A stretch of DNA of 64,000 nt from a virus: positions 1 to 64,000 of IMG/VR virus record IMGVR_UViG_3300025141_000036, one strand, 5' to 3'. Position numbers and translations under genes: made by a program. Positions 10,533 to 64,000 of the stretch are shown here, one piece after another (position 1 is the stretch's first letter; each line of letters starts with the position of its first letter). Below the pieces are notes generated by a model that was not told where the DNA came from, made no database searches, and was given only the letters and a program-made list of their open reading frames with translations.

Positions 10533-10745
10533 TTACTTTCTTACTATAATATAACCCATATTGTATAGGTTGTCAAGTGTGAAATCTAATTTATAAAAAA
10601 TTAAAACCTCACAAACTATGCTTTTCATATAAGCCGAGTTGCCCGTTATAATTCTCATTTCAAGACCCCAGTGTTCATTGATAAAAATATGCAAAGCCTC
10701 CTCTACTTCCCAATGACGCAAGCCATGTAAGTCAAGCGTCTTCAT
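10533..10745 (-). CDS. Stand-alone Smr-domain protein, 70 aa
   Basis: Contains LDLHG at residues 4-8 with a following acidic helix, then IITGNSAYMK, the two hallmark motifs of the small MutS-related (Smr) domain, and ends with GYIIVRK. Smr domains bind or cleave branched nucleic acids or RNA. The protein is essentially the bare domain. It overlaps the end of the nucleotidyltransferase-fold gene by 14 nt. The promoter of the downstream recombination gene lies inside its last codons. Confidence 0.82.
   Translation of the reverse strand: MKTLDLHGLRHWEVEEALHIFINEHWGLEMRIITGNSAYMKSIVCEVLIFYKLDFTLDNLYNMGYIIVRK
10548..10576 (-). promoter_or_regulatory. Sigma-70 promoter before gp47-gp46 fusion gene
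   Basis: TTGACA at 10571-10576 and TATATT at 10548-10553, spacer 17. Both boxes lie inside the last codons of the Smr gene. The predicted start near 10541 gives a ~20-nt leader with GGAGGAC. Confidence 0.84.
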
Positions 10746-12957: not shown

Positions 12958-12985
12958 AATATAACTGGTTGAGAAGATTTGTCAA
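12958..12985 (-). promoter_or_regulatory. Sigma-70 promoter before primase gene
   Basis: TTGACA at 12980-12985 and TATATT at 12958-12963, spacer 16. The TGA stop of the upstream gene is part of the -35 box. The ATG of primase is at 12940 behind GAGAGGAC. Confidence 0.78.
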
Positions 12986-13551: not shown

Positions 13552-13580
13552 AATATAACGTGTTAAGTAGTTGTTGTCAA
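13552..13580 (-). promoter_or_regulatory. Sigma-70 promoter before nucleotidylyltransferase gene
   Basis: TTGACA at 13575-13580 and TATATT at 13552-13557, spacer 17. Predicted start near 13545 gives a ~20-nt leader with AGGAGG before the ATG at 13524. Confidence 0.82.
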
Positions 13581-14092: not shown

Positions 14093-14121
14093 ATTATAAC
14101 ACATCTAAAGGTATGTGTCAA
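14093..14121 (-). promoter_or_regulatory. Consensus sigma-70 promoter before RuvC-like gene
   Basis: TTGACA at 14116-14121 and TATAAT at 14093-14098 on the minus strand, spacer 17 nt: a perfect host-type promoter. The expected start at ~14086 equals the A of the ATG chosen for the RuvC-like gene. Host polymerase should read it early in infection. Confidence 0.88.
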
Positions 14122-31600: not shown

Positions 31601-34600
31601 GCGCTGCTGGACGATGAGGCTAGATCCTGTTGTTATCCCCACCGTGTAAATATTCTCCGGCGCATTACCTACATTCTTTCCCCCTCCAAAAGAAATTAAG
31701 GTTTTATAAAACTCTCTATCTTTTCCTAAAGGGTAATTTATTCCCCCATGGATTCTTTGTCCAAAATCAATGCCGACTTTATAAGGCCTTGCCAATCTGC
31801 GAGCCGCGAAGGTTGATCCCTGGTATATTGTTTTATCTACGGTTGATAAATTGGAGGATGTTGCATTAGTTTGGTTTATTATAATTTCTCGAATTTTTTC
31901 TCGATCCGGACCTACCGAGGATTGGCAACTTAAAGTGCTACGCTCTTTTCTTTCTTTTTGCCAAACACAGTTTTCGTTTGGTGAGCCGGTACCGGTGACA
32001 AACGCGCCGGGTGCGGAGGTGACATTTGTAACCCCAGACATATCAATAACTGTGTTGCCTGTAGTTCCTACTATTTGCTGGTATAGCCCAACAACTAAGG
32101 GAAATGGGGATGTTGCTGTTATAGCTATATCTCCATTTGAAGCGGCACCATTGATGGCCGATACAAATCGATCTCTTATGGTCGTGCTGGATCCTAAAGC
32201 GCTTTGGATTCCAATAATGACTTTCCCCGAAGATTTAGTTCCATCCGCAGTATTAGAAGTAGTGTCTGTAATAAAGACCTGGCTGCAACCATTTGCATCT
32301 GTTAAAGTAAATTCTTGTGAGTTTCCGGGGTCTCCTGCGATTACTATTGTTCCTATTGCTGCTTTTAAAACAGGTGCATGTCCAAATTTCCAATTATATG
32401 TAAGCTCTTCGACTCCACGGATTATACCCTCCGTACTTGCAAGTTGATCTAAGAGTCCTACTCGCCTTTGATACTTGTTTCTCTCAAGAATGTGTGACTC
32501 AATGACATCTGTTGCTCCGGTGCCAAAATTAACAGAAGCAGGCACAAGTTGTCGGATCATTTCTGATATATTTCGATCTATCCATTTATAAAACTTAATA
32601 AATCTTTCCTGGTCTGGGTCATCTTCTACTCGATTGAAAAAGTCTTGACGAACCTTGTTTAATCTCTTATAGTCCATTCTATATCGATCTTTAGGGCGAC
32701 CCATTAAATTGGCAAATTCGTGAACACTTGAGAACATCTTGAGCATTTCTTCAGAAATAATCTGATTCATACTTTTTTCTAAAGTGTAAAAATTGTCGCT
32801 TACATCATCATCTTTTATAAAATTAATATCTCTATCAGTCTTGATAACAATGTTGTCATCAGTGTAGGCTATCTCTGGGAGTTCTTTCTTTTGGGCATAA
32901 ATAAATTCATTTTCAGCGAACGTTGTTTTGCTAGCCCCAAAAGAGTATCCTTTCCCTCTATTTTCTCTGCGAATAACCGCATCAATCACTGTACTATAAA
33001 TAACATCTGTGGAGCCGCTAGTTAAATCTTGAACAATAAAATCACCCGACGGACTAGACCCTGTGACTAAGTCGAACTCCCAATTAAGAATAGTTAATTC
33101 TTCTGAGGGTATATTTTTGTTAGTCACTGTGAAGATGTTCGATCCGCGGAACGCTTCAGAGTTACCATAATTCATTGGATCTTTATTGTGAGCTTGTATG
33201 GACGAATCTTCTAGGTAATCCAACCATGATCTTACGGCTCCAATTTCGATATCGGACTTGGTCAAAACAGAACCAGTAAAGTCTGAATAATGCGCACCGG
33301 CATAAATTCTTTTTGCATTAGATAAAAAGGCTGATCCAGAGGCGTTGTTCAGACTAGCTGTTAAATGAACCACATTCTCCAGTTCGTCAAAGTTATAGTT
33401 TACGGCATAAAAATCTAAAGTATAGGAAGGTGCAACATCCGTGACGTTCCCTGCGTAGGGATATGTATCTGGCTTCACGCGGATAGCCATATTCCAATGG
33501 TTATTCTCGTAAATGTTAGTGAAGTAACTAGATGTTAAGTTTATGGTTCCATCAGTATTTTTTAAAACAAATTTTCCATTTTTCGAATCAAGTTCGTCTC
33601 GGACTAAATAAACTTGAAGATTTGCAGTCTCTCTCGACCCGCCAGATCCAGTAGCCCACATGTAATTGCCGGGAGTTTCCTCTCGGGCTTCATGGAATCC
33701 AAAAATTGACGATGATAAAAACGGGGTGTAAAGATATCCTATTTCTGTGGTATCTTTTTTATATGGAAAAAGAACGTCGGCCTCTACAGTAAAAGCATCC
33801 TTCATTAATTCAGTAGTGGCGAGGCGGCCAAAAATAAAAGTATAAGGATTGTTCGCTGATGAGGTTTGAAAGATTGTTGATGAGTTATATTGAGGGTCCT
33901 TAAAATTTAAATATTTTTTTCGAACTGAAGATCCTTTCGCCTTATCGGTAAAGTAATGAGTCCCCCCATCCGTATAAACATTTAATTTAACTATCTCATC
34001 ATCTATCCCGAAACAGCGGAGGAAGTTCCTGATTGACTTTTCAGTTCCCTTAGATTTATAGATCGCCTCAATGTTATTATAAATGTTAGTATAAATCAGG
34101 TTTCTCAACCTATCAAGATTTTGTTCAAATTTAATAGAATCAAGATCAACATCGCCAAATAGATTGACAATTTCCGAGTCTATGAATAGGTTTCTGACCA
34201 CAAACCCTCTATCTGTTAAAAGATGGCTTGCAAAAGGAAGTGGCTTCTCGTTATCTTGAACGTAAACCTTGTCTTTGAGGTTAGGTAATGCAGTTATTTG
34301 AGCGTGTAGGGTGTCAAAGTAACTAGCCATGATTTGTGTCAGACTTCTTAGATTTGCACTACCCTCCTCGACGTCCTCATTGGTCATCCATTGAGGCAGA
34401 GAGCGAAAGATGGAGCTACCCACCGTGTTGTCATGCAAAGCCCCGGAGATAGCCATTTCGGACTCCAGAGAGACGACTTTGGGATGATCTGAATAGATGA
34501 TTGGGTTTTCCTCTTCTATATAAGCAAAAGAGGAAGATGCAAAAGCAGATCCAGTATTTCTTTGAGTGGAAGAAGTATATCCTTGCCAATAGCCATTAGC

Positions 34601-35788
34601 AATTCTACCCGAGTAATCTAAAACCTTTTGATCGAGTGCCGTATAGCCAGTTATTCCTTCATTAAATTTATAATAGACCCCCAAATCAGTGTTAGAACTA
34701 TTGTTATCAGAATTAGCTCCTCCTCCAATTTGACGGAACCAGTTCAGGCCGATTTGTTGCCCTGTTCTTTCTTTCTTCCAAAAACGAAATTCATCCAGAG
34801 ATCCGGAAAGCTTACCATAATTGGCGCCGCCGAAGCCACTTGGGGTGGTTGTCTGTAATGCTCCCATGTAGCCAGTTATCAAATTTTCTACTTCTGATCC
34901 CATTGTAGCACCGTGCTGAAGCAGCCGATCTTCTTGTCCATCGACATAAAAGCGCGTCCAAACTTGAGATCCATTTTGTATAAAAGATAGGGCGTAGTGA
35001 TGCCAATTCGCCATTGATGCATCCGTTGTTGATCCCACTGTACTTACGACTTGCTTTATGAAACCGTTGGTTCCATGGCGCAACGTCAACCTAAAGACAG
35101 GATCAGTTCCACCAGATGCTTTATAAACTTCTAAAATAAGACGCCCATAGTCAGCGTCAGACGGAGTCGTTACTCCATTCCATAGGTCTAAAATAACCTG
35201 AGATTGAGTCTCTGTTGAAGTATTTGGAAAGGTCGGAATCTTCAGCCAAAATTCAACTGTTGATCCACTAGCAAAATTTAGTCTCCAATTTTGAGTTCGA
35301 TTATATTCTAGGTCATATTTACCGGATTTTTCAAAGGTCTCCCTAAGTGGCTTACCAATCATTCCTGCTGATGCAGTATGGATGCCTCCCCACGTTCGAA
35401 TAAACTCTGGTGTGTTAGTTGAACCGTAGTTCGCACTTATGCTGCCGCCCCAATCAGCGGTAGTTCCTAAGTTTATGTATCCTGTGGTTTTTGGATACTT
35501 TTCCTCATACATCCACCGATCAAGATAAGAGGAAGATTGGTGAAATTGAATTGTTTCTAATTTAGAACCATCATAGGGATAATTGTTATAAATGCGAGAA
35601 ATGGAATCGGCGTAATACACTTCCGCAAGGCCATATTTAACAAAATTAGATGCGGTTGTAAAATCTATAGGTGGTATATAGGTTTCTCTTTCCTTCACCT
35701 CCTCAGATACAAACTCTGGAGATTCTACATAAACACTGGAGCTTGCGTAGCTTTTGACACCTTTGCCGAATAAATTTTTAATGCTCAT
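28616..35788 (-). CDS. Giant virion protein with two LamG-like domains, 2390 aa
   Basis: Two regions look like concanavalin/LamG-type jelly rolls. One is at ~170-345 (STVEFWLKIPTFP ... GSLDEFRFWKKERTGQQI) and the other at ~1935-2110 (AISYSFWINVTTT ... GSLSDFAVWTTEFTPRQV). The region between has a helical part at ~490-640 (IYTNIYNNIEAIYKSKGTEK) and beta-rich stretches. LamG folds bind carbohydrate or protein ligands, so the protein may be an adhesin or fibre-like part of the baseplate. It follows the 505-residue gene, overlapping it by 11 nt. Its position after gp6 recalls T4 gp7, without visible homology. Confidence 0.78.
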   Translation of the reverse strand: MSIKNLFGKGVKSYASSSVYVESPEFVSEEVKERETYIPPIDFTTASNFVKYGLAEVYYADSISRIYNNYPYDGSKLETIQFHQSSSYLDRWMYEEKYPKTTGYINLGTTADWGGSISANYGSTNTPEFIRTWGGIHTASAGMIGKPLRETFEKSGKYDLEYNRTQNWRLNFASGSTVEFWLKIPTFPNTSTETQSQVILDLWNGVTTPSDADYGRLILEVYKASGGTDPVFRLTLRHGTNGFIKQVVSTVGSTTDASMANWHHYALSFIQNGSQVWTRFYVDGQEDRLLQHGATMGSEVENLITGYMGALQTTTPSGFGGANYGKLSGSLDEFRFWKKERTGQQIGLNWFRQIGGGANSDNNSSNTDLGVYYKFNEGITGYTALDQKVLDYSGRIANGYWQGYTSSTQRNTGSAFASSSFAYIEEENPIIYSDHPKVVSLESEMAISGALHDNTVGSSIFRSLPQWMTNEDVEEGSANLRSLTQIMASYFDTLHAQITALPNLKDKVYVQDNEKPLPFASHLLTDRGFVVRNLFIDSEIVNLFGDVDLDSIKFEQNLDRLRNLIYTNIYNNIEAIYKSKGTEKSIRNFLRCFGIDDEIVKLNVYTDGGTHYFTDKAKGSSVRKKYLNFKDPQYNSSTIFQTSSANNPYTFIFGRLATTELMKDAFTVEADVLFPYKKDTTEIGYLYTPFLSSSIFGFHEAREETPGNYMWATGSGGSRETANLQVYLVRDELDSKNGKFVLKNTDGTINLTSSYFTNIYENNHWNMAIRVKPDTYPYAGNVTDVAPSYTLDFYAVNYNFDELENVVHLTASLNNASGSAFLSNAKRIYAGAHYSDFTGSVLTKSDIEIGAVRSWLDYLEDSSIQAHNKDPMNYGNSEAFRGSNIFTVTNKNIPSEELTILNWEFDLVTGSSPSGDFIVQDLTSGSTDVIYSTVIDAVIRRENRGKGYSFGASKTTFAENEFIYAQKKELPEIAYTDDNIVIKTDRDINFIKDDDVSDNFYTLEKSMNQIISEEMLKMFSSVHEFANLMGRPKDRYRMDYKRLNKVRQDFFNRVEDDPDQERFIKFYKWIDRNISEMIRQLVPASVNFGTGATDVIESHILERNKYQRRVGLLDQLASTEGIIRGVEELTYNWKFGHAPVLKAAIGTIVIAGDPGNSQEFTLTDANGCSQVFITDTTSNTADGTKSSGKVIIGIQSALGSSTTIRDRFVSAINGAASNGDIAITATSPFPLVVGLYQQIVGTTGNTVIDMSGVTNVTSAPGAFVTGTGSPNENCVWQKERKERSTLSCQSSVGPDREKIREIIINQTNATSSNLSTVDKTIYQGSTFAARRLARPYKVGIDFGQRIHGGINYPLGKDREFYKTLISFGGGKNVGNAPENIYTVGITTGSSLIVQQRCDDVYNPNKKAYKFFECTAGKYATGVEGELPKTPKEEYMYKMHSSRFWPFNVVSGTLTSGYNKRVSYWFNSSSIVTNVHSDTTDYTNAIPIQGPFTDAWVGGRQSRHIDINKYDATLKGAGVAPPNGLQGLYTRPEAWRYLFGENPLNNPFSDSDGAMGLTGPDYGAPYPDQTKKLAMWYREERAKRPVNVKNILTTTASAVHGNYQFPYEVVSSFGISDQRFRMREILLNPTDGLFGTVHSTLPQTTQPSSLLGAGTFGNANARIYFRVSTDLQASGNGKTLTIYNPCPTNAFRKHTFTVNNSLDYLSSNATTIGTLNASNATKCAVALWTAFGAAITAGKLNATRFPTTTPTNFQVYLQANDAGEFRVVDSAAPLTPATGITLTYIRVGSGHRMGQTNKLASQLSGATTHKSVVRTRFSAPGGPETMSEDFLDVSSQEFSVYNAINYRNLSVRASGSGQAGTIRVNSNLNRREGNRTLLARWLGKGGVDSQWGSISYPDSGSTDPQAAFYKQHRNTLVTPRIKSTSLRKAINSPTTAVENKCYLSNQSVTQPWSQTGAISYSFWINVTTTATDQTILDGYATQFIKIDTDKIEVSFEDINTNENVWTFPFTNTNTWNFIVISWSGNPSSDITVFINNIEQTVTRTVTASPPNPIRYLNPEIYLLDGPAAAHFYELQGSLSDFAVWTTEFTPRQVSELYNANGKALGVSFYSALIDYWRLGTESTLSSIAVGSGISKGTIIPSEIGGNSLTAEDNLSCSVGPYGIHTLEDVNQHDNMNYNSLMPRSDFQYSWIRQSLSGSKWMDKQKVRGYAPKSGELTIVGNGALTKLESAINWPLISEIVCDNCDDDSALITLTWDADGDRDAGSSTSSDDTTEWDVLASGATPTGDYTVAVNKLVSDLVLSYTYSEECCDEVKYGMVVKGPLTTGGTKATYDSVVYVASPRTFVTNNGAAVTFTHAPGAEVPTQIKIVLTCDGASAELLITLKKVTIAIA

Positions 35789-53472: not shown

Positions 53473-53675
53473 TATTGAACGCTCGTTTCGATTGTTCCAC
53501 CTTCTGGTGACGGGGCTTGCACCACTGGAGGGTTTATAACCACCAGTTGGTCAGAATCATCGATTTGTATTTCAAAACCAGTTAAGGTTGGGACGATGTC
53601 TGTTTGTTCCATTAGTGATTTCTGAAGCGCCATCATAATGGCACCTACTGCTTGATTAGATAATTTATAGTTCAT
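53472..53675 (-). CDS. Small conserved-type phage protein, 67 aa
   Basis: Begins MNYKLSNQAVGAIMMALQKS, then LMEQTDIVPTLTGFEIQ and NPPVVQAPSPEGG. Very similar small proteins occur near structural genes in many marine phages as far as I recall, but no function is known to me. An AAGGAG site precedes the ATG. It is cotranscribed with the sugar operon upstream and the late sigma block downstream. Confidence 0.65.
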   Translation of the reverse strand: MNYKLSNQAVGAIMMALQKSLMEQTDIVPTLTGFEIQIDDSDQLVVINPPVVQAPSPEGGTIETSVQ

Positions 53676-54513
53676 TTATAATCTCCTTAATATAATCTTC
53701 TAACTTGTATTTAGGCTCCCAGCCTAAAATTTTCTGTGTGTTTTTAATATCTGCCTTTGTTTCTTGGGCTTCTCCTCTTCTTTTTGGAAGAGTAACTTTT
53801 TCACTTTCGAATAGATCTACAATCTCATTGATTGAATAATTAATTCCCGTTCCAAAATTAAAAATCTCTCCTTGCCAAACAGCTTCGGCTAGTTGAATTA
53901 ACCCATCACATATATCGGATACGTGTGTAAAATCTCTTCTCTGTTTTCCATCTCCAACTACCGTTAGGGGTAATCCTTTGGATTTCAACTCTTCAAATTT
54001 CGCTATAATTGGGGTGAACTCTCCAATAAGTGGATTTCGTGGACCGTAAACATTAAAAAATCGAGCGGTCACTGTTGAAACCCCAAACACTTTTGAATAC
54101 ATTTCACACATCTCTTCACCTAATTTTTTACTAAAGGTATATGGGTTTTTTAGCTTACCCCCGTAACATGATGACGATCCAGCGTAAACCACTTTACAAT
54201 CTCTGGTTCTTGCATAATCGCAAACAACTGATGTACCTAAAACATTACTTTTTTGCCACAAATGAGGATTTTGAAAACTAGGCTGGATTCTGGCCTCTGC
54301 TGCTAAATGGAAGATAACGTCTACATCTTCGCAAAACACGGATGATAGTAGACCAATGTCATCATAATAATATTCTTTCACAGAATCATTCTTCCACAAA
54401 TAACTTCCAGATGACATATCGTCAATAACATAGACAGTCCAGCCTTTTTCGACTAAGCGATCAACCAAGTTGCTTCCCACGAAGCCTAAGCCACCAGTAA
54501 CTAATGCTCTCAT
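53665..54513 (-). CDS. NAD-dependent nucleotide-sugar epimerase/dehydratase, 282 aa
   Basis: Extended SDR: VTGGLGFVGSNLVDRL carries the GxxGxxG NAD site near residues 7-13. HLAAEARIQPS follows. The catalytic SS...YxxxK is in SSCYGG and PYTFSKK. The ATG at 54513 overlaps the upstream stop (ATGA); a longer in-frame start at 54558 lies within the upstream gene. It is similar in layout to UDP-glucose 4-epimerase or UDP-glucuronate decarboxylase; following the UDP-sugar dehydrogenase, the latter pairing is attractive but unproven. Confidence 0.85.
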   Translation of the reverse strand: MRALVTGGLGFVGSNLVDRLVEKGWTVYVIDDMSSGSYLWKNDSVKEYYYDDIGLLSSVFCEDVDVIFHLAAEARIQPSFQNPHLWQKSNVLGTSVVCDYARTRDCKVVYAGSSSCYGGKLKNPYTFSKKLGEEMCEMYSKVFGVSTVTARFFNVYGPRNPLIGEFTPIIAKFEELKSKGLPLTVVGDGKQRRDFTHVSDICDGLIQLAEAVWQGEIFNFGTGINYSINEIVDLFESEKVTLPKRRGEAQETKADIKNTQKILGWEPKYKLEDYIKEIINEL

Positions 54514-55361
54514 TTGTCCCCCTCGTCTTTCGACACAGCACCTTCGATTTTCAACCAATCATGGTTCTCTCTAACTTCAATATTCTTTTTCCATGCAGCC
54601 TCCATGACTGCCGGATCAACCCCCAATTCTTTTGCTTTAACGATCATAGCGTTGATATCCTTTGGGAAACATTTTCCCCCAAATCCCGGAGAACCATCAT
54701 GGCCCGGAACATCGATGTGTGAATTACCTATACGTCCATCTGTTATAAATCCTTCAATTGCTTGATCCCAATTGGCCCCTGCAGCGTCACAAATTTGCTT
54801 CATTTCATTCATAAACGAGATCTTCGTGGAGAAGAAACAATTAGCCATGTATTTAATCAACTCGGCGGTTTCAAAATCAGTTTTGATGATCTTAGTATAA
54901 GGAAACCGTAATCGATATAATTTTTCGACCTCTGTGGTATAAAGGATATTCCCTCCTAACACAATTCTAGAGGTGTTTATAAAATCTAATTTTGCTCGCC
55001 TTTCTGTCAAAAACTCAGGATTGAAAACGAATGCCATCTGAGGAAACTTTTCGCTAAGTTCTTGGCTTGTTCCCGGAACAATTGTTGATTTTAAAACAAA
55101 TATATTATCGCGGTAATCTATCCCCAGATCATCAATCGATTTTAGGACTCCTTCAATTATTGAAAGATCACATTTTCCATCTTTATTCATAGGAGTTGGA
55201 AGAGACAAAAAAATAATTTTTGCTTCCTCGAGCATTTCTTTTAGTGTGCTTATTGATCGATTTGGGTCCTTATCATAGATTAATATATCATCGGTGTGCA
55301 AAACAAACCCATGAACGATAGCTGACCCTACAAATCCATTCCCAATAATTCCAATTTTCAT
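54510..55361 (-). CDS. UDP-glucose/GDP-mannose dehydrogenase-like, short form, 283 aa
   Basis: The N-terminal Rossmann domain has GIIGNGFVGSAIV. FNPEFLTERRA and the catalytic cysteine segment GFGGKCFPKD (~228-237) are diagnostic of sugar-nucleotide dehydrogenases, which oxidise the C6 alcohol to the acid. Family members normally have ~390-450 residues with a third, UDP-binding domain; here the chain ends ~45 residues after the catalytic Cys, so this domain is missing. Whether a short form is active is unclear. GAGGTGAAAT precedes the ATG. Confidence 0.85.
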   Translation of the reverse strand: MKIGIIGNGFVGSAIVHGFVLHTDDILIYDKDPNRSISTLKEMLEEAKIIFLSLPTPMNKDGKCDLSIIEGVLKSIDDLGIDYRDNIFVLKSTIVPGTSQELSEKFPQMAFVFNPEFLTERRAKLDFINTSRIVLGGNILYTTEVEKLYRLRFPYTKIIKTDFETAELIKYMANCFFSTKISFMNEMKQICDAAGANWDQAIEGFITDGRIGNSHIDVPGHDGSPGFGGKCFPKDINAMIVKAKELGVDPAVMEAAWKKNIEVRENHDWLKIEGAVSKDEGDK

Positions 55362-55380
55362 ATTTCACCTCTGGTTAAAA

Positions 55381-56151
55381 TCATGAATGTACTCCTCTTT
55401 TGCTCGGGTCAATATTATATTTCTTAAAAATAATTTCCAACTCATTCTTATAAATGTCCATAGCCCACATTGATGGGAGCCCATAAGATCCCCCGTGAAG
55501 GGCTGTGGATATATAAGGAAAAACACTTGAATCATGATGCAGTCTTCCTCTTTTCGGCTCCTCATTAAAGATATAACAACCTGTTATCCCAAGGGCCAAA
55601 CATGCATAAGTGCCCAGTCGTTCTGCCTCGAGAATGTTCTTTGGTTTGTAAGAATTCATCAATTGCTGAAGTCTTTTTCTTTTCCAAAGAGTTGTTTGGC
55701 AAGAAAAAATATATGGATGTGAGTAGGTTCCAGCTGGCTCTCCTCCGGTTTGAGGGATCTCATATATATTTAAGTCATTATGAATTTTCTTGCCGCCCTC
55801 TACTCCTGATTTCATAAATCTTAGAAAGTCATAATTTGAATCGATTAAAAAATTATTTAAATTCTCTATATTTTCCTTCTTAACGTCACCATATAAAAGA
55901 TGGTCTTCGTGGGAATAGATTATATTATCCTCTTCAATGTGATCTAATGATTCCACCAGCCTTTTGTAAAATGGGTCGTCTTCTTTGTTATAAACCACAT
56001 CGCAAAAATTAGGCTCATATTCTTCATTTTGATTTATAATGAGAGTGTGCTTTAAAAAGCCAGCATGTTGTTTAAATTGACCGTAATAGGCATCCCAAAC
56101 ATCGTTGTATGTAGAATGAGTCCAAGTTGCAACTCTAAGATTTTTTATCAT
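55381..56151 (-). CDS. Glycosyltransferase-like protein, 256 aa
   Basis: Begins MIKNLRVATWTHSTYNDVWD. A segment ...EEDNIIYSHEDHLLYG has the (E/D)D loop with preceding hydrophobic strand seen in glycosyltransferase-like phage proteins that use a metal-bound nucleotide sugar. A second motif, GGEPAGTYSHPYIFSCQTTLWKRKRL, also fits a GT-A-like fold. No exact family. In the operon it lies between the AroE-like and UDP-sugar dehydrogenase genes and overlaps the former by 4 nt, so it may transfer the sugar the operon makes. Confidence 0.6.
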   Translation of the reverse strand: MIKNLRVATWTHSTYNDVWDAYYGQFKQHAGFLKHTLIINQNEEYEPNFCDVVYNKEDDPFYKRLVESLDHIEEDNIIYSHEDHLLYGDVKKENIENLNNFLIDSNYDFLRFMKSGVEGGKKIHNDLNIYEIPQTGGEPAGTYSHPYIFSCQTTLWKRKRLQQLMNSYKPKNILEAERLGTYACLALGITGCYIFNEEPKRGRLHHDSSVFPYISTALHGGSYGLPSMWAMDIYKNELEIIFKKYNIDPSKRGVHS

Positions 56152-56825
56152 ATTAAGATTTCCTCTAAATTTTTTTTCACATATTCCATGGGAAACTTAA
56201 TCCCCGTGTACATATGGAATTGTTTGGATGCTTGGAGTAAAGAAAGTTCTTTTCCTGTTTGAGTATTAATCAAGCAATCTATAAAACACACATTGGGGTT
56301 TACAGTTATATTTTCAACAGGAGTGCAATTAAAAATAAGACCAGAATCAATATTTCCAATCTCTTCCCAGTTGTTCCTAGTTATTATTTTAACTTCATCG
56401 AACAATTTTTTTGCCGAGAACTGTGCTGCTTTAGAAAAACCACCAGAACCTAATATATATATAATATCTCTGTGTTTTATTTTACTCAAAACAGTGTATG
56501 TCGAATAAGCGTCGGTGTTATATGCTGTCAATACTCCGTCATCATTTATGATTGTATTACAGGAACCAATCACCCCAACTTCTTCTGATATCTTATCAAC
56601 AAAATTGATTGCACTTATTTTATAAGGCATTGTAACTCCGCAGCCCCTAATCCCGAACGCTTTAATTCCTTTTATGGCACTATTAAGTTCTGATTTTTTG
56701 ACAGAAAAAGATTTATAAATAAAATCACATCCCACTTTTTTGAACGCTGCGTTGTGAATAGAGCACCCAAAGTTTCCTGCCGATTCTGCTATTGATATGC
56801 AGACTTTAGTATTTTTATTTATCAT
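56148..56825 (-). CDS. Shikimate dehydrogenase-like (AroE fold) oxidoreductase, 225 aa
   Basis: GCGVTMPYK (~62-70) and YNTDAYS (~101-107) carry the catalytic Lys and Asp of shikimate/quinate dehydrogenases. GSCNTI precedes them, and ILGSGGFSKAA is the NAD(P) glycine loop. The usual N-terminal S-x-SP shikimate-binding signature is replaced by GNFGCSIHNAAF, so the substrate may not be shikimate. At 225 residues it is shorter than typical AroE (~270). It is flanked by a split transketolase and a glycosyltransferase. An unusual gene for a phage. GGAG lies 10 nt before the ATG. Confidence 0.82.
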   Translation of the reverse strand: MINKNTKVCISIAESAGNFGCSIHNAAFKKVGCDFIYKSFSVKKSELNSAIKGIKAFGIRGCGVTMPYKISAINFVDKISEEVGVIGSCNTIINDDGVLTAYNTDAYSTYTVLSKIKHRDIIYILGSGGFSKAAQFSAKKLFDEVKIITRNNWEEIGNIDSGLIFNCTPVENITVNPNVCFIDCLINTQTGKELSLLQASKQFHMYTGIKFPMEYVKKNLEEILI

Positions 56826-57738
56826 TAAGAATCGTCTCCGTCATTTTTTCTGATGTTAATCCATATTTGTTCCACAAATCCATTGGAGGAGCAGACTCGG
56901 GAAACACATCATTCAACCCAATTCTCAACAGTCGTGCGGGATGGTTTTCACATAAAACCTCTGCTACTATAGAACCTAGACCGCCAACTATAGAATGATC
57001 TTCTATTGTAACAATTTTTTTAGTTTCCTTGGCGGCTTTGATTATAATTTCTTTATCAACGGGCTTTAAGGTCGGAAGATTTATAACTCGACATGAAATC
57101 CCTTGATCTTCAAGGTTTTCCGCTGTCTTTAAAGCTTCCGAAAGGATGCAACCGCTACTTATTAAAGTAATGTCATTTCCCGGTAAAAGCTGGTTTCCTT
57201 TTCCAAACTGAAATCTATAATTTTCTGAGAGGTGTTCTTCTACAGGTTGCCTTCCTATTCTTAAATAAACCGGATTTTTTAAATCTGTCTCTACTAGATA
57301 TTTTGTTATTTCACGAGCCTCAATAGGAGTTGCAGGTTGCAAAACAACCATTCCAGGAATAGACCTCATCAAACTTACATCCTCGAGACCCATTTGGGTC
57401 ACTCCATCCTTTCCAATGGCCAAACCAGCATGAGTGCCCACTAAAATTACAGGAGCCTCAGAATAACCTATAGAGACCCTTATAACATCATACTTCCCTG
57501 TAAGGAAAGAAGCAAAAGATGCCATAAAGACTTTGTAGCCATATTCTGACATACCTGATGCTATTCCAATCATATTACATTCAGCTATTCCACATTCGAA
57601 AAATCTATCAGGGTATGCTTCATGAAATTTTGAAAGCCTTGTCGCTTTTGACAAATCAGCACTCAAAGCTATAACATCTTTTCTGTCTCTGGCTGATTCT
57701 ACTAGTTGTTTGCCGAAGGCATCTCTTGTTGCTAACAT
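56815..57738 (-). CDS. Transketolase C-terminal half, 307 aa
   Basis: FECGIAECNMIGIASGMS holds the catalytic glutamate of the pyrimidine-binding domain. HAGLAIGKDGVTQMGLEDVSLMRSIPGM is the characteristic transketolase stretch, and a C-terminal transketolase domain follows (ISSGCILSEALKTAENL; IEDHSIVGGLGS). Together with the next gene it forms a two-subunit transketolase that uses thiamine diphosphate to move two-carbon units between sugar phosphates, giving for example sedoheptulose 7-phosphate. The genes overlap by 7 nt with a GAGGAG site, supporting equal synthesis. Confidence 0.93.
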   Translation of the reverse strand: MLATRDAFGKQLVESARDRKDVIALSADLSKATRLSKFHEAYPDRFFECGIAECNMIGIASGMSEYGYKVFMASFASFLTGKYDVIRVSIGYSEAPVILVGTHAGLAIGKDGVTQMGLEDVSLMRSIPGMVVLQPATPIEAREITKYLVETDLKNPVYLRIGRQPVEEHLSENYRFQFGKGNQLLPGNDITLISSGCILSEALKTAENLEDQGISCRVINLPTLKPVDKEIIIKAAKETKKIVTIEDHSIVGGLGSIVAEVLCENHPARLLRIGLNDVFPESAPPMDLWNKYGLTSEKMTETILNDK

Positions 57739-58511
57739 CTCAACTCCTCTAGTGCTGCTTCATATTCTTCTTTATTTGGTGCTTTAGCATGCCAAGCTGG
57801 GTCATTCATGAATGAAACACCTGCTCCTTTCTGTGTGTCTAGGATTATACACTTTGGTTTTCCATTTGATTCTAAAGAATCCATAGCTTTCTCTATTTCT
57901 TCATAAGAATTGCCATTAATTCTAATTATATCCCACTTAAAACTAGCTAGTTTTTCCCCCAAAGGATCTAAGGGCAGGATATCCTCTACTAAGCCATCGT
58001 TCTGTGATTTATTAAAATCAATAAAACAGATAAGATTATCTAATTTGAATTTAGGGGCTAACATAAACGCTTCCCACACTTGCCCTTCTTGAATTTCTCC
58101 ATCGCCAACGATACAAAAACACTTTCCGCCAAGGGCCTGTAGTTTCATAGCCAGAGCATGCCCTAGGGCTATACTTAATCCTTGTCCTAGGGAACCTGTT
58201 GTAGCATGCATATAGGGCAACCTCACTTTGTCAGGGTGACCTTGCAAGGGAGAATCAATTTCTCTAAATTTTGCCAGATCCTCATCTGATAAGATTTCCA
58301 ATTCATAGAGTGCGGCATACAAAATAGGAACAGCATGCCCTTTGGACAAAATAAGTTTGCTCCCGCCTATCCCTCTAGATGTCAGATCATAATTTGAATA
58401 TAGATATGCCACCAACTCTGCTAAAGAAAAACTACCTCCGATATGACCAGACTGTTTTTCATAAATCATTCGCAGCACATGCTCTCTTAATCGATTAGCC
58501 GATATTTTCAT
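57732..58511 (-). CDS. Transketolase N-terminal half (ThDP-binding), 259 aa
   Basis: GHIGGSFSLAEL, SKGHAVPILYA and ATTGSLGQGLS are standard transketolase segments. VGDGEIQEGQVWEA with a downstream FIDFNKSQNDG is the GDG...N thiamine-diphosphate/Mg motif. The ATG at 58511 follows GGAAGG; a TTG two codons earlier is less likely. The subunit is completed by the following gene. Split transketolases are known in bacteria and in some natural-product and polysaccharide clusters. The protein is too short to work alone. Confidence 0.93.
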   Translation of the reverse strand: MKISANRLREHVLRMIYEKQSGHIGGSFSLAELVAYLYSNYDLTSRGIGGSKLILSKGHAVPILYAALYELEILSDEDLAKFREIDSPLQGHPDKVRLPYMHATTGSLGQGLSIALGHALAMKLQALGGKCFCIVGDGEIQEGQVWEAFMLAPKFKLDNLICFIDFNKSQNDGLVEDILPLDPLGEKLASFKWDIIRINGNSYEEIEKAMDSLESNGKPKCIILDTQKGAGVSFMNDPAWHAKAPNKEEYEAALEELRC

Positions 58512-59127
58512 TCGCAACCTTCCTTTTTAATAAACCCACAGCAATGTGAGTAATTTTAGAAATAGAATCTTCAAAATGAAAATTATTATTATTCTTCCCA
58601 GTTTGCCCCGGAAAAATAGAGTCTCCCCTAACAATTATCAACAAATCAGCTAAATCTCTTGCTTTGCAGCTTTCATTTCTTGTAATAACCACCACTTTCA
58701 TTCCAATTTCTTTTGCATATTCTGCTGCTTTAATAACGTTTTTTGAATTTCCTGAACCACTGATTCCGAAGAACACATCACCTGATGATCCTTGATATCT
58801 TAATTGCTCAACAAAAATGTTCTCATATCCCAAATCATTAGAGATGCCTGTTATTGTAGCTACACAATCACACAAATTCACACAATGAAACTTATTCCTA
58901 GGAGCGGATCTGTTTCCTTTGTCCTCAGAGACAAACGGATGCATATTTAAATCTACGACCAGATTGCCCACATAAGCCACATTCCCACCATTTCCACAAG
59001 CAAACACTTTCTTTTCTTTTTCATAAGCTTCAAAGATTATTTTTACAAAAGACTCGATTTCGGTTGATGAAATTGTCTGTATTACTCTTGATGATTCTTT
59101 TTTGTAAACTTCTATTAATTCTTGCAT
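58495..59127 (-). CDS. SIS-domain phosphosugar isomerase, GmhA-like, 210 aa
   Basis: Layout and motifs match sedoheptulose-7-phosphate isomerase: FACGNGGNVAYVGNLV (usual GNGGSA, here Ser is Asn), TGISNDLGYENIFVEQL, GDVFFGISGSGNSKNVIKAA, and a C-terminal ITHIAVGLL with the conserved His. GmhA converts sedoheptulose 7-phosphate into D-glycero-D-manno-heptose 7-phosphate. Its substrate is the product of a transketolase reaction, encoded by the two genes just downstream. The Ser-to-Asn change in the phosphate loop is worth noting. AAGGAG lies upstream of the ATG. Confidence 0.85.
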   Translation of the reverse strand: MQELIEVYKKESSRVIQTISSTEIESFVKIIFEAYEKEKKVFACGNGGNVAYVGNLVVDLNMHPFVSEDKGNRSAPRNKFHCVNLCDCVATITGISNDLGYENIFVEQLRYQGSSGDVFFGISGSGNSKNVIKAAEYAKEIGMKVVVITRNESCKARDLADLLIIVRGDSIFPGQTGKNNNNFHFEDSISKITHIAVGLLKRKVANENIG

Positions 59128-60683
59128 TCTTCATCTCCTTTTAAATGTTTTGATAATAAATATTTTCCTAATAAAAATAAAAAATCTCCGTATTTCCCAC
59201 CATGAAAATCCTCATATAGAGAGCAAATTCCAATATATTGCAAAATACCCAATAACTTTACATTGCTCCAATCTAAATCTCTCTCAACACAAAACATTTC
59301 AAACTCTATCAACAAAAATAATAGATTGCTTTTGACTTTATAAGAAAGAAAAGCTTCTTTGTTTTTAATTTTATAATCATAATGTTTAGATAAAACCATT
59401 TGCCCATTAATCAAGAGAGCATGATATAACTTTCCTAAGTCATAATATGTATCTCCAACCTCCAAACTTTCGCCAAAAGATTCCCTCCAATCGATTAATT
59501 GAAACCGTTGGCCATCATAAATTATGTTTTCTGGTTGGAAATCACCATGAAAATTGCTAGGAATCGCATTCTTATAAATAGATTCCCAGTTTACTCTACT
59601 TAAGGTCTTTTGGATAGGTTCAACTTTTATCCCGTTAATAAATTCTATTTTATCTAACTCACTATCAGAATAAAGACTTATTCTATCGAACAACTTTTCT
59701 TTATACATTTTATTGCAATTGTCGAGAAAACCTTTCGATTTTTCAAAACGCGATGATGAAATCTTATCCATATAAAAATCTAAGACACTCTTCAAAACGT
59801 TCTCATCCAATATCTGGGATAGAGTTTCTCCTTCTATAAACTTATATGAATACATATTATCATTAACCAATTCTACTTCCGGAACGGAATTGTTAAGAAA
59901 ATCTACTCTCAACAGTCTTTTCTTAACCTTTTCGGGATTGTGAAAATATTTTATAACAGTTTCATTTTCAATAAAAATTGTTTCGTCATTTTTGGGAGCA
60001 ACCACTTCTTTATTGTAGACTTTTCGAGTTTCGTCATATGACTTATTATTTCCCGTATCATGCCAAGTAAAAAAGTTTAATCTTATTTCCTTCAAATCAT
60101 AAAACCCATGGATAACTTGATATTCATCATTTATAATACTCTTTTCTCTCAAAGAATCCCAGAATGTTTTATAATCATAAACCCCGGCCATTCCGTTATA
60201 AGCCAAATTCCCTATTCCGTAATAAAGCTCATCCAAGTATTCTTCTCCTTTTATTAAACAATATCCCGATGAGGAAGCACTCTCTATTATTGAAGTGCCA
60301 ATCCAATTGTCATCTAGGTAGGAAAATTTTTCGACTTCTTCTACTATAGTATCAGACGAAGTGAAAATAAAAGGGCACCGTAAATGTTTTTCACACTGTA
60401 ACAGACTAAGGCCCGGGCCGGATCCGGGTCCTGAGAAATTTTCTACATGAACATAAGTTATTTTTCTACTTGGAAACACCCTTTTTAGATAAGACTTAAC
60501 TTGATAACTCTTAAATCCCAGCGCAATCACAATCTCTATATCTTTACTGAAACTCCTTATTATTTTAGATATCACTGCTCTGTTTTCTATTGGTAACAAT
60601 GATTTGTGCAAACCAGCAACAGTAGTGTTTCTAGACCCCTGGCCTGCTGATAAAATACAAAGTTTGAATTTGCTATTTTTCAT
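59115..60683 (-). CDS. Fused sugar nucleotidyltransferase and aminoglycoside-phosphotransferase-like kinase, 522 aa
   Basis: The N-terminal ~235 residues are a nucleotidyltransferase: LSAGQGSRN (11-19) then HKSLLPI, and FIFTSSDTIVEE for the metal site. The C-terminal half is a kinase of the APH/choline-kinase fold with FHGDFQPENIIYDGQRFQLIDW (~374-395), the HxDxxxxN and DxD elements. One protein may thus phosphorylate a sugar or small alcohol and activate it with a nucleotide, comparable to LicC/LicA or HddA/HddC pairs. It has its own consensus promoter. The coding region is AT-rich. Confidence 0.82.
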   Translation of the reverse strand: MKNSKFKLCILSAGQGSRNTTVAGLHKSLLPIENRAVISKIIRSFSKDIEIVIALGFKSYQVKSYLKRVFPSRKITYVHVENFSGPGSGPGLSLLQCEKHLRCPFIFTSSDTIVEEVEKFSYLDDNWIGTSIIESASSSGYCLIKGEEYLDELYYGIGNLAYNGMAGVYDYKTFWDSLREKSIINDEYQVIHGFYDLKEIRLNFFTWHDTGNNKSYDETRKVYNKEVVAPKNDETIFIENETVIKYFHNPEKVKKRLLRVDFLNNSVPEVELVNDNMYSYKFIEGETLSQILDENVLKSVLDFYMDKISSSRFEKSKGFLDNCNKMYKEKLFDRISLYSDSELDKIEFINGIKVEPIQKTLSRVNWESIYKNAIPSNFHGDFQPENIIYDGQRFQLIDWRESFGESLEVGDTYYDLGKLYHALLINGQMVLSKHYDYKIKNKEAFLSYKVKSNLLFLLIEFEMFCVERDLDWSNVKLLGILQYIGICSLYEDFHGGKYGDFLFLLGKYLLSKHLKGDEECKN

Positions 60684-60701
60684 TTAATTCTCGTTTTATA
60701 T

Positions 60702-60730
60702 ATTATAACACATTCTTCGTCCCCTGTCAA
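60702..60730 (-). promoter_or_regulatory. Sigma-70 promoter inside sugar operon
   Basis: TTGACA at 60725-60730 and TATAAT at 60702-60707, spacer 17, directly before the nucleotidyltransferase/kinase gene (ATG 60683). Predicted start near 60695. It allows the downstream half of the operon to be expressed separately from the upstream half. Confidence 0.87.
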
Positions 60731-60737
60731 AAAAAAA

Positions 60738-61211
60738 TTAATTTTTATGCTCGATATCTATTTTTCCAGATTTTCTATTTGTATCATCTTGATATCTAAT
60801 GACATCATTAAGATGAGGAGTGGAAACCTCCAAAGCAGTATAGGATTCTCTAGCTATGACTCTATGTTTTCTATTGAGAGGGACTGTCCACCCTGATCCT
60901 GCTTTATAAATCTTGGATTCCATAACCCCTTCATCATTTTCCAAAAGAACCTCTGCTTCTCCTTCAATCACATAGTTTGCTTCAATCTTATATTCATGAG
61001 ATTGTAAACTACATCTATTACCTTTTTTCATATGAATCAGCTTAAAAGCATAAAACTCATTTAATTCCAACCATAGTTCATAGCCCCATGGCTTTACTAC
61101 TTTATAATCGCTTACTGATAGGTTATCCGGCTTGCTGTTATCAATCGTATCTTTGTACTCCTCTAGTGCTTGCTTTATAAACAAATCTTTAATGTGATCA
61201 AATTTTGACAT
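60738..61211 (-). CDS. Cupin phosphosugar isomerase-like protein, 157 aa
   Basis: KVVKPWGYELWL and MKKGNRCSLQSHEYKIEANYVIEGEA match the cupin domain of type II mannose-6-phosphate isomerases, where His and Glu bind zinc. It is a single cupin domain, without the nucleotidyltransferase domain often fused to it. It may isomerise or epimerise a sugar phosphate in this operon. It overlaps the HAD gene by 14 nt. The -35 box of the next gene lies just after its stop. Confidence 0.78.
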   Translation of the reverse strand: MSKFDHIKDLFIKQALEEYKDTIDNSKPDNLSVSDYKVVKPWGYELWLELNEFYAFKLIHMKKGNRCSLQSHEYKIEANYVIEGEAEVLLENDEGVMESKIYKAGSGWTVPLNRKHRVIARESYTALEVSTPHLNDVIRYQDDTNRKSGKIDIEHKN

Positions 61212-61563
61212 CTTTAATTCCTTGGTTTCTTTTTAAATTTATTGCATATGCATAATCTTTATCCCCTGAGGGCTTTCTATCATTTATAATATATCTTTTT
61301 CCTCCGCCAATGCCCATAACTAATTGGTCATAGATAATGCCGGCTTTTGACAATTGTTTTTCTGTTTGCTTTCTCATACTCTCTCTACGACCAGTAGTGA
61401 GAATAATGTTGTAGCCTCGGCGGTCCCACTCTTCTAGTTTTTCTAGTGTTCCGTTTAAAATTTCCATTTTATTATCTTGTCGACAAGATAAAAAGGGTGA
61501 CTGATGTTTTACTAACGTGCCATCTATATCACAAAAAATAGTGGCTGGTCTCTTTTCATTCAT
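61198..61563 (-). CDS. Small HAD-superfamily phosphatase, 121 aa
   Basis: Motif I is FCDIDGTLV (~10-18), motif II/III lies in IILTTGRRESMRKQ and motif IV in YIINDRKPSGD (acidic residues). No large cap domain. Such proteins hydrolyse sugar phosphates and occur in capsule and heptose clusters, in the role of GmhB. The ATG overlaps the upstream stop (ATGA). The exact substrate is unknown. Confidence 0.82.
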   Translation of the reverse strand: MNEKRPATIFCDIDGTLVKHQSPFLSCRQDNKMEILNGTLEKLEEWDRRGYNIILTTGRRESMRKQTEKQLSKAGIIYDQLVMGIGGGKRYIINDRKPSGDKDYAYAINLKRNQGIKDVKI

Positions 61564-62681
61564 AATATAAACCTTGTACTTGGGTTAATGTTCTCCAAGA
61601 TATCTTTCTTTATCTCTTCTGTATACATTGCTGCCTTAAGAACAACAATGGGGTTAACAACATCTTTTAGAATCTGTGGAGACCGGACAAACAAGTTTGT
61701 TCCATAAAGTCTCTGGTTTATTTTCGCAGGGTCGTTATCCAATATGAAAGAAAAGTTTTCCTCTTTCAAACCAAACTTCAACAAAGATTGGGTAAAAATG
61801 TGAGCACCAAAAATAAATGTGTTACTCTTATTTTCCAGTTGGTTTTCAATTTTCTTCACTTCTGCATTGTAATAATTCATAAAATCATCCAAATAAGACG
61901 AATCTTGTTTATAAACCTTATCGGCTGCAACAGACGAAGATTTGATCGCTGAAACGAAAACACAGTGGTTGCTAAAGTCTTTTTCTTCTACAACTTCAAG
62001 GCCAGAGTAATGTAAAATTTCTCTTAACAACTCTTTTGTTAAACCATAGGTGTGTTCAAAATTCATCGCATTTGTGAAACCATCTTTCATCATCTCATCA
62101 ATTATGGGTGCCGAAATGAACATCATTTTTCCTTCTTCTAAAAGCTCTGTCATCACTTTAATCTCGTTCATAGGATCATAGAGGTGCTCTATAACATGAG
62201 AATGAATGATTGCGTCGGGTTTTTCTTTTACAGAATTCTTATCAAAAAATTGTTCTTTTAAAATAATCTTATCTGTTGGCTTATTACCATAACAACTCAG
62301 GTTAGTGTCATAAACCGTTATAGATTCAATCTTCTGGTTTTTCTCAAGGTGCTTAGCTAAAACTAGTTGTGCGCCACCAATCTCTACAAGATTACCTGAT
62401 GCACTAATATTGATGAAGTCTGCAAATTCTTTGTGGTGGCGATTCCAAATTTTACCAAAAGAACTGTTATGAGCATCTTTATATAAAATTTCCAACGGAA
62501 CTAATTTTGTTAATTGTGCTGTTTTACACTCAGAACATTTTGCAAAATTCAAATCTAGTGTCAAATCGGATTCTCTGTTTTGAGTTGTAGTTCCCATATA
62601 GATAGGAAAATCTTTTATAGAATAAGCATCTACTAAAGGAGACGAGCAATAAACACATTCGCTTCGCAGGACATATTTCAT
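61560..62681 (-). CDS. SAM-dependent C-methyltransferase with zinc site, 373 aa
   Basis: The N-terminal part has CVYC (Cys10, Cys13) and CSEC (~50-53), the zinc-binding head of sugar C-methyltransferases. A Rossmann methyltransferase follows (GNLVEIGGAQLVLAKHL for SAM binding, IIHSHVIEHLYDP). The C-terminal ~120 residues have a second Rossmann-like stretch (NTFIFGAHIFTQSLL; VVLKAAMYTEEIKKDI). Family members methylate ring carbons of NDP-deoxysugars, or act in other small-molecule pathways. Located between the GT-D-like and HAD genes. GGAG lies upstream. Confidence 0.82.
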   Translation of the reverse strand: MKYVLRSECVYCSSPLVDAYSIKDFPIYMGTTTQNRESDLTLDLNFAKCSECKTAQLTKLVPLEILYKDAHNSSFGKIWNRHHKEFADFINISASGNLVEIGGAQLVLAKHLEKNQKIESITVYDTNLSCYGNKPTDKIILKEQFFDKNSVKEKPDAIIHSHVIEHLYDPMNEIKVMTELLEEGKMMFISAPIIDEMMKDGFTNAMNFEHTYGLTKELLREILHYSGLEVVEEKDFSNHCVFVSAIKSSSVAADKVYKQDSSYLDDFMNYYNAEVKKIENQLENKSNTFIFGAHIFTQSLLKFGLKEENFSFILDNDPAKINQRLYGTNLFVRSPQILKDVVNPIVVLKAAMYTEEIKKDILENINPSTRFIL

Positions 62682-63415
62682 TTATCGCTCCACACACAAA
62701 TTTTATTAATAGTTGGTTCATTTCGTAAATAACCGCGGGTCTTTCCTGCTTCTCCCAACAAATAATGATTAAGTGTTGATCCTATGTCGATGTAAGTATT
62801 TTGTGAATTAAACTCAAACAACTGATGGGCTAAAATGTTACCAAACGGTCCGGCACAAAAAAGGAACAAATTATCTTTTATTTCCTCTGTTGTTATGAAA
62901 TCTTTCACCTCCGATATTAATTCATTATTATCTACCCATGCATTCTTTCCAATCTGAAAATGTTTCGAGACATCAAACGGAAGACTATCCAAATTAGATG
63001 CCGAGTTTGAAACCAAAACCACCTCAAACTCTGAATAATGTGGAACCATCTTATCTAAATAATGCTTATGATTTCCATTAACAAAAAGATTGGCCCAAGT
63101 TAAATTTGTTAATTCTTGCCCCGATTGTTTTTTTAGCCAATTATGAACAGTTAACCCCCCAATACAACAAGGACATGAGATTCCTACGAAATAATTTTCA
63201 TTCTTAAATCTAAATGACTCTATCATTTGTTTTCGAAACTCTTGATTCTCTTTTGGATTAAACCAAAACTCACCATTATTAATTGGCTTATTTGATAGGA
63301 TGTGTAATTCTCCATCAGCATATTTAGAAAAAGAAAATGGCTCTTTGGTTTTTAACTTATCAATCAATATTTTTAAATCTTCCCTAAAACTTTTATTCTC
63401 TGTTTTAAATTTCAT
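62678..63415 (-). CDS. GT-D-type (DUF1792-like) glycosyltransferase, 245 aa
   Basis: SFSKYADGELHIL (~30) resembles the acidic DGE motif of GT-D-fold glycosyltransferases, and the C-terminal LFLFCAGPFGNILAHQLFE ... TYIDIGSTLNHYL matches the conserved end of that family. ATG at 63415 is preceded by GGAAGGAAG; a more upstream ATG at 63433 would place this site inside the coding region. It probably adds a sugar to a surface glycan. It overlaps the methyltransferase start by 4 nt. Confidence 0.68.
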   Translation of the reverse strand: MKFKTENKSFREDLKILIDKLKTKEPFSFSKYADGELHILSNKPINNGEFWFNPKENQEFRKQMIESFRFKNENYFVGISCPCCIGGLTVHNWLKKQSGQELTNLTWANLFVNGNHKHYLDKMVPHYSEFEVVLVSNSASNLDSLPFDVSKHFQIGKNAWVDNNELISEVKDFITTEEIKDNLFLFCAGPFGNILAHQLFEFNSQNTYIDIGSTLNHYLLGEAGKTRGYLRNEPTINKICVWSDK

Positions 63416-63417
63416 AA

Positions 63418-64000
63418 TTATTCTTCCTTCCATTTTGGATAAGGTTTATTACAGGCTTTCTTAAACTTGACCTTGAAGTCATCGGGCCATTCTTTATTGA
63501 TAACTCCATCTTTTGGCACCCTCGGCGGTAAATAAATATTTAATCTATTTTCTCTACAATATTTAAAAATTTGATATACCTTGTAAGAATCAGTCCCTTT
63601 GGAAATTCGAACATCCCATAGTTTGTTTTGCGATGGCTCACAATCTCCAAGCAACACCTCCCTTAATGCCTCAACAGTTAAGGAGTCAGCCTCTCGGACA
63701 AAACCCTGCTCGGTTGTATAGGGTGTGTATGTAAATTTTTTTGTTTTTAATATCTCGCCACTATCCACCCTATTTTCAATTCTCATGATCGAAACTCCCC
63801 ATTCGCAGGATTCCAACATTCTTCCCCAGACTAACGAGGCGCCGCCTTGAACATCTGGGAGTATCGCTCCATGGTTACCAATTACTTCGAATTTTGATGT
63901 GATTGATTTAGGAACTATCCTAGAATCACCTAAAGTTATAATCAAATCAATTTTGTTTCTCTCACAAAACTCTAGGCAATTTTGCCATTCGCTTGTTTTA
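63418..64000 (-). CDS. Formyltransferase-like protein (partial, N-terminus beyond window)
   Basis: The frame is open to the right edge, giving 193 visible residues. DLIITLGDSRIVP, then IGNHGAILPDVQGGASLVWG and VDSGEILKTKKF follow the formyl-transferase pattern (Asn-His ... Asp catalytic triad) of methionyl-tRNA and sugar N-formyltransferases. In a sugar operon, an N-formylating enzyme acting on an amino sugar is more likely than tRNA formylation. An internal TTG at 63945 is not the start. The substrate amino-sugar genes would lie outside the window. Confidence 0.78.
   Translation of the reverse strand, partial: KTSEWQNCLEFCERNKIDLIITLGDSRIVPKSITSKFEVIGNHGAILPDVQGGASLVWGRMLESCEWGVSIMRIENRVDSGEILKTKKFTYTPYTTEQGFVREADSLTVEALREVLLGDCEPSQNKLWDVRISKGTDSYKVYQIFKYCRENRLNIYLPPRVPKDGVINKEWPDDFKVKFKKACNKPYPKWKEE

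Follow-up and report, generated by a model that had tools for sequence, protein, structure and literature searches.

A recurring seven-gene cassette in a T4-like phage sugar operon and the undescribed nucleotide-sugar pathway it may encode

The 64,000-nucleotide stretch of viral DNA analysed here (the window) comprises bases 1-64000 of the 112,401-base viral record IMGVR_UViG_3300025141_000036, and its minus strand carries, from position 53665 to the window end, an operon of sugar-enzyme genes belonging to a T4-like phage. At the core of this operon lies a seven-gene cassette, HAD-cupin-NTK-SIS-TktN-TktC-AroE, in which NTK denotes a nucleotidyltransferase/kinase fusion and TktN and TktC the two halves of a split transketolase. 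The operon probably encodes a pathway, itself probably expressed early in infection, for making an unusual nucleotide-activated sugar and transferring it to an acceptor. Sugar islands are known in T4-like phages, and what is new is the undescribed modular pathway at the core of this one. The balance of evidence leans slightly towards a pathway in which NTK, cupin, HAD and often AroE are fed by two unrelated carbon-skeleton builders, either a GatZ-like aldolase or the split transketolase plus SIS isomerase, and which is widely distributed among uncultured phages, with scattered occurrences in archaea and bacteria. The intact operon, the recurring and selected core and the GatZ alternative come from sequence, while the reaction steps are read from the chemistry of the enzyme families.

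Recurrence of the core in two interchangeable versions, together with the selection acting on it, points to a working pathway rather than filler DNA. The function of phage gene islands of the lipopolysaccharide (LPS) type has been stated to be unknown (PMC3037559), and a single recurring seven-gene cassette makes it testable whether such an island works or merely fills space. The operon also offers a new nucleotidyltransferase-kinase fusion, rare and apparently interchangeable biosynthetic front ends, and the chance of an unknown sugar. If the two-builder interpretation is true, it amounts to non-orthologous replacement of the whole front half of a pathway, seen as a natural swap between operons.

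Recurrence and exchange of the core cassette

Two viral contigs, L006 and L007, carry cupin-NTK-SIS-TktN-TktC-AroE-HAD among otherwise differing neighbours, and alignment-based scans for SIS, TktN and NTK found these three together in 24 phage contigs, a count that includes the window, two phage contigs binned in metagenome-assembled genomes (MAGs; L018 and L019) and a few near-duplicates; the viral records are fragments, and the contigs are not independent of one another. Gene order within the core is nearly fixed among carriers, with HAD at one end or the other, and TktN and TktC are always accompanied by SIS, NTK and cupin. Because the seven-gene core recurs in other phages, the operon is not a chance assembly. 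Identity of the core proteins to those of the window is mostly 45-85% (27-55% for AroE) whereas the terminases of the carriers are 30-50% identical, which indicates that the cassette moves between divergent phages. The cassette itself appears to be mosaic, since gene-by-gene identity to the window is uneven (76% for SIS and 46% for NTK in L011, as against 62% and 64% in L006). Breakage of the genes in relatives, a possibility raised by the initial annotation, was not seen, as carrier frames are full length except at contig ends and in a few shortened AroE genes. The ratio of nonsynonymous to synonymous change (dN/dS, NG86) lies at about 0.01-0.3 in every core gene across five pairs, with synonymous distances near or above 1 that leave the ratios rough and their direction clear. 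Such ratios indicate that the core genes have been kept working, and the cassette, as judged from its coding sequence, is intact and under strong purifying selection.

The TMED198 and Pacearchaeota bins (L018/L058 and L019/L060) were considered as cellular carriers and rejected, because by look they are T4-type phage contigs within MAGs, with a PD-DExK gene, the GT1-GT2 glycosyltransferase pair and a sugar island, plus a clamp-loader-like gene in the TMED198 contig. Transketolase matches in gut 'phage' and GatZ matches in Listeria phage were set aside as they may be bacterial fragments. A search of viral contigs with the single NTK sequence gave no match, and alignment-based scans were needed to find its relatives, which number 149 in viral contigs (80 were kept for locus comparison). 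Among 50,697 deposited phages, the only ones with a full-length NTK relative are a few Enterococcus phages and a marine single-cell virus; none of the deposited cyanophages matched NTK.

Cellular NTK relatives sit among glycan genes. In the cellular loci L047-L051, L053 and L054, NTK is accompanied by cupin and a GatZ/KbaZ-like protein, without the SIS-transketolase set, and most of these loci also have a KdsC-like HAD and an AroE-like or short-chain (SDR) dehydrogenase. When 99 loci were sorted by type, 70 had GatZ, 25 had SIS with transketolase, three had neither and one (L067) had both, so that strict mutual exclusivity of the two sets was rejected. The Fisher test of their separation (p 4.5e-19) ignores kinship, so the NTK tree was used, on which the SIS-transketolase label requires three changes, at least two of which are forced by well-supported branches. 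A natural swap is seen in locus L126, where cupin-NTK-GatZ stands in the place that cupin-NTK-SIS-TktN-TktC-AroE occupies in the window, flanked by relatives of the window operon's GT3 and GT-D glycosyltransferases, methyltransferase, HAD and a 256-aa protein (36-65% identity). L126 and the window may thus arrive at one product by two routes.

Core enzymes and the proposed route

NTK (59115..60683, minus strand, as are all operon features given below; 522 aa) joins an N-terminal nucleotidyltransferase, whose nearest profile is CTP:inositol-1-phosphate cytidylyltransferase, to a C-terminal APH-type kinase. Its structure model (predicted local distance difference test, pLDDT, 85) folds like many sugar nucleotidyltransferases, LicC and MurU among them, the GxGxR motif is present, and the catalytic motifs of both domains are invariant across eight relatives. 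CTP is the best guess for its nucleotide, by a resemblance that other NTP-type folds match with equal scores. The neighbouring PMI-type cupin (60738..61211; 157 aa; PF01050) shows 81-84% identity to its counterparts in L006 and L007, and because a cupin is fused to the N-terminus of NTK in 17 phage open reading frames, the two proteins probably act together.

The SIS isomerase (58495..59127; 210 aa), assigned by family match, is related to GmhA and scores 94 bits against the GmhA equivalog TIGR00441, below the cut-off of 209; an insertion around NMHPFVSEDK is nearly invariant among its relatives. TktN (57732..58517; 261 aa; TTG start; PF00456, 7.5e-33), the thiamine pyrophosphate (TPP)-binding half, and TktC (56815..57738; 307 aa; PF02779 and PF02780) form a split transketolase with intact TPP motifs, an invariant GDGE motif in TktN and the activating Glu retained, and the best solved relative of TktC is the C chain of another split transketolase (6yaj, 3.2e-82). 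A Gln in TktC (GVTQM) at the position of a His in many transketolases was considered as a specificity change and rejected, as this Gln is also present in human transketolase (GPSQM). The AroE-like dehydrogenase (56148..56825; 225 aa; PF08501, 5.9e-19; 1npy, 4.3e-33) resembles HI0607, which is shikimate-dehydrogenase-like, and retains the catalytic Lys and Asp positions. It is a shortened protein, and the AroE-like proteins of the cassette come in a full-length form (L017:12942-13757) and in one that lacks about 35-40 residues ahead of the C-terminus (window 56148-56825). The HAD phosphatase (61198..61563; 121 aa), likewise supported by family match and bearing an invariant DxDGT motif, has PNKP phosphatase domains as its nearest profile and a weak likeness to heptose-bisphosphatase.

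In the route that these families suggest, the split transketolase would form a ketose phosphate. Sedoheptulose 7-phosphate is the likeliest one, given that SIS is GmhA-related and that for fructose 6-phosphate no dedicated enzyme would be required. SIS would convert the ketose phosphate to an aldose phosphate, HAD would remove its phosphate, the kinase half of NTK would phosphorylate the anomeric carbon (C1), and the nucleotidyltransferase half would then yield a nucleoside-diphosphate sugar, with cupin and AroE setting stereochemistry or redox state. Variable neighbours could methylate, oxidise, epimerise or formylate the product, and glycosyltransferases would attach the sugar. Where GatZ is present instead, the transketolase and isomerase steps would give way to an aldol reaction with the same or an equivalent product.

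Several points weigh against this scheme, not least that we infer its substrate, nucleotide and acceptor. GatZ/KbaZ is elsewhere annotated as a non-catalytic subunit, the GatZ-type loci are without SIS, so that isomerisation there is unexplained, and the two types of locus mostly track NTK clades. Furthermore, L067 has both front ends side by side (SIS, TktN, TktC and AroE, and GatZ; L067:11934-12890, L067:8992-11937). The zinc site of GmhA consists of H61-E65-Q175-H183 (PMC5387315), and in the window's SIS two of the four ligands are changed, Asn and Asp being aligned at His61 and Glu65, such that heptose is not secured; the last two positions, judged by spacing, are Glu and His.

The scheme follows the same logic as the pathway to nucleotide-activated glycero-manno-heptose (GmhA, HddA/HldE, GmhB, HddC/HldE), in which a ketose phosphate passes to an isomerase, to a kinase and HAD phosphatase, and then to a nucleotidyltransferase. 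It differs in that the kinase is of APH type, with neither an HddA-type GHMP kinase nor HldE, and is fused to a LicC/IPCT-like nucleotidyltransferase, in that the SIS has altered zinc ligands and falls under the GmhA cut-off, and in the addition of a dedicated transketolase, cupin and AroE. An APH-type kinase is likewise paired with a nucleotidyltransferase in AmgK-MurU and LicA-LicC, but in NTK the two are fused into a single protein, and its identity to solved nucleotidyltransferases is about 13-20%. A small HAD gene directly ahead of a distant NTK homologue occurs in Caballeronia and Variovorax capsule loci and in Enterococcus phages 9183 and Planchet, but these uncharacterised pairs are about 23-30% identical, and no SIS, Tkt, AroE or GatZ was seen adjoining them. 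The LPS clusters of T4-like cyanophages (P-SSM2, S-SSM7, S-SCSM1; PMC3037559, PMC9602691) are alike in being islands of epimerase, glycosyltransferase and PMI-type isomerase genes in a T4-like phage, and the window operon, as these islands, lies near a phoH gene; unlike in the window, a cassette of transketolase, SIS, NTK and AroE is not described there. A search of full-text literature, with most subscription journals outside its scope, found no described pathway with the operon's gene set, and PHROGs gave no match for TktC, AroE or GatZ. Beyond the window, the cluster turned up solely in uncultured phages and in two cellular clusters that are themselves uncharacterised (L017 and L020), not as a characterised bacterial pathway. 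The initial annotation, which did not recognise the gene combination as a described pathway, is therefore upheld as far as characterised pathways go, although the set it named is composite and only the seven-gene core recurs.

Expression, acceptor and alternative roles

The window has six exact TTGACA-N16-18-TATAWT sites where shuffles give 0.18, and 10 of the 12 promoter-like sites in the whole record lie on the coding strand, several of them near where gp46-like, primase-like and RuvC-like genes begin. One such site lies directly ahead of the first operon gene (record 68840-68812), and another, TTGACA-N17-TATAAT with a TG extension (60702..60730; 12/12 match), lies 18 nt ahead of the NTK start. 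A minus-strand family of strong promoter-like sites, TTGACA-N16-18-(G)TTATAWT, several of them directly ahead of DNA-metabolism genes, is present at window positions 10548-10576, 12958-12985, 13552-13580 and 14093-14121 and in the record at 68812-92443, and it looks like a set of early promoters of the window's phage. The phage of L007 (L107) has the same motif ahead of its cupin, and most other carriers are without it. Because sigma-70-type sites stand ahead of both the operon and NTK and are shared with DNA-metabolism genes, the operon is predicted to be early and transcribed by host-type RNA polymerase.

The acceptor of the sugar is most likely the surface glycan of the infected cell; the initial annotation proposed that such a change of the host surface might block other phages. 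It might instead be a virion protein of the fibres or capsid, as structural genes adjoin the operon and the operon has several glycosyltransferases and no flippase or polymerase, but such a role is unlikely given that the promoter-like sites, which DNA-metabolism genes also have, belong to the host sigma-70 type rather than the T4-late type, and no acceptor protein was identified. Lower still is the likelihood that the phage attaches the activated sugar to bases of its own DNA, in the manner of T4 or RB69 glycosylation. Distant HAD-NTK relatives (about 24% identity) do occur with glycosyltransferases in the Enterococcus phages Planchet and 9183, in operons of nucleotide metabolism where they adjoin thymidylate synthase/hydroxymethylase and dUTPase genes. 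However, PF00303 (thymidylate synthase/hydroxymethylase) is absent from the window's record and from 25 other module-carrying viral records, which are incomplete but in some cases 165-494 kb long, and neighbours encoding a methyltransferase, a formyltransferase, an epimerase and a UDP-glucose-dehydrogenase (UDPGDH)-like protein suit a glycan better. The HAD-NTK pair with glycosyltransferases in Enterococcus phage 9183 (L188:4244-9439) and in L009 is possibly a DNA modification pathway in its own right.

Pentose-phosphate genes are known in phages, and cyanophage transaldolase is thought to redirect pentose-phosphate metabolism. Genes of this kind are mentioned in PMC9602691. Transketolase and isomerase are enzymes of sugar-phosphate metabolism, and they could in principle redirect that of the host towards nucleotides, with the adjoining sugar genes unrelated; this is very improbable, as TktN and TktC come invariably with SIS, NTK and cupin, and a GatZ-like protein replaces them beside the same NTK in cells and in L126. 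For the LPS genes of cyanophages, a filler role has been suggested as a possibility (PMC3037559), and composite content and a G+C of 35%, versus 40% for the remaining window, would fit an operon of non-functional DNA taken up for headful packaging. Such an origin is scarcely credible in view of intact frames in divergent phages, dN/dS of 0.01-0.3, conserved active-site motifs and promoter-like sites.

Operon architecture and accessory genes

The large terminase of the record shares 46% identity with its Flavobacterium phage immuto counterpart and matches thousands of T4-like records. Together with the enzyme family matches, it bears out the proposal that a T4-like phage carries this operon and that the encoded enzymes could between them synthesise, activate and modify an uncommon sugar and pass it on to an acceptor. 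The operon is followed by a gp55-like sigma factor gene and by structural genes. The 13 minus-strand frames first described as consecutive sugar-enzyme genes are all present and intact, and family calls agree for 12 of them, the exception being 55381..56151. The start of the operon, which had been sought beyond 64000, is found in the full record, where the operon reaches 68791 and comprises 17 genes over 15.1 kb, the added part holding the remainder of the formyltransferase gene, a GDSL esterase and three glycosyltransferases. Coupling by overlaps holds for most neighbours (4-44 nt) and fails at two places, a gap of 54 nt ahead of NTK, which holds an exact sigma-70-type promoter match, and one of 19 nt ahead of the UDPGDH-like gene. 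The operon is thus composite, with seven genes forming the recurring pathway and the UDPGDH, epimerase, methyltransferase, GT-D, formyltransferase, GDSL and glycosyltransferase genes being variable accessories.

Among these accessories, the formyltransferase-like gene (63418..64000, on to 64197 in the full record; 259 aa; PF00551, 2.3e-7) had no relative among the fetched loci. The GT-D-fold-like glycosyltransferase (62678..63433; 251 aa) matches PF08759 at 6.8e-5, under the Pfam cut-off, and has a 44% relative in L126, while relatives of the C-methyltransferase-like gene (61560..62681; 373 aa; PF13489, 1.1e-9; PF08484, weak) adjoin NTK in other phages and in cells. The 256-aa protein encoded at 55381..56151, for which family searches gave no match and the structure model has a pLDDT of 39, has a 44% relative at a similar place in L126. 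The UDPGDH-like protein (54510..55361; 283 aa; TIGR03026, 2.3e-54) is without the C-terminal domain and has 43-50% relatives in other phage contigs, and the final gene, an NAD-dependent sugar epimerase/dehydratase (53665..54513; 282 aa; PF01370, 2.7e-44), probably starts at 54513 rather than 54558.

Immediately upstream of the operon lies a membrane protein weakly similar to PHO4 phosphate transporters (L003:5861-6814), and a gene of the fatty-acid-hydroxylase family (PF04116; L003:8342-8761) adjoins phoH in the window's phage. By reading of the sequence, neighbouring VWA-domain-like and MoxR-type AAA ATPase-like genes, uncommon for a phage, are present at L004:14950-17357. A tail-region protein of 2390 aa in the window (28616-35788) has, by eye, stretches of concanavalin/LamG-like repeats and is a possible adhesin.

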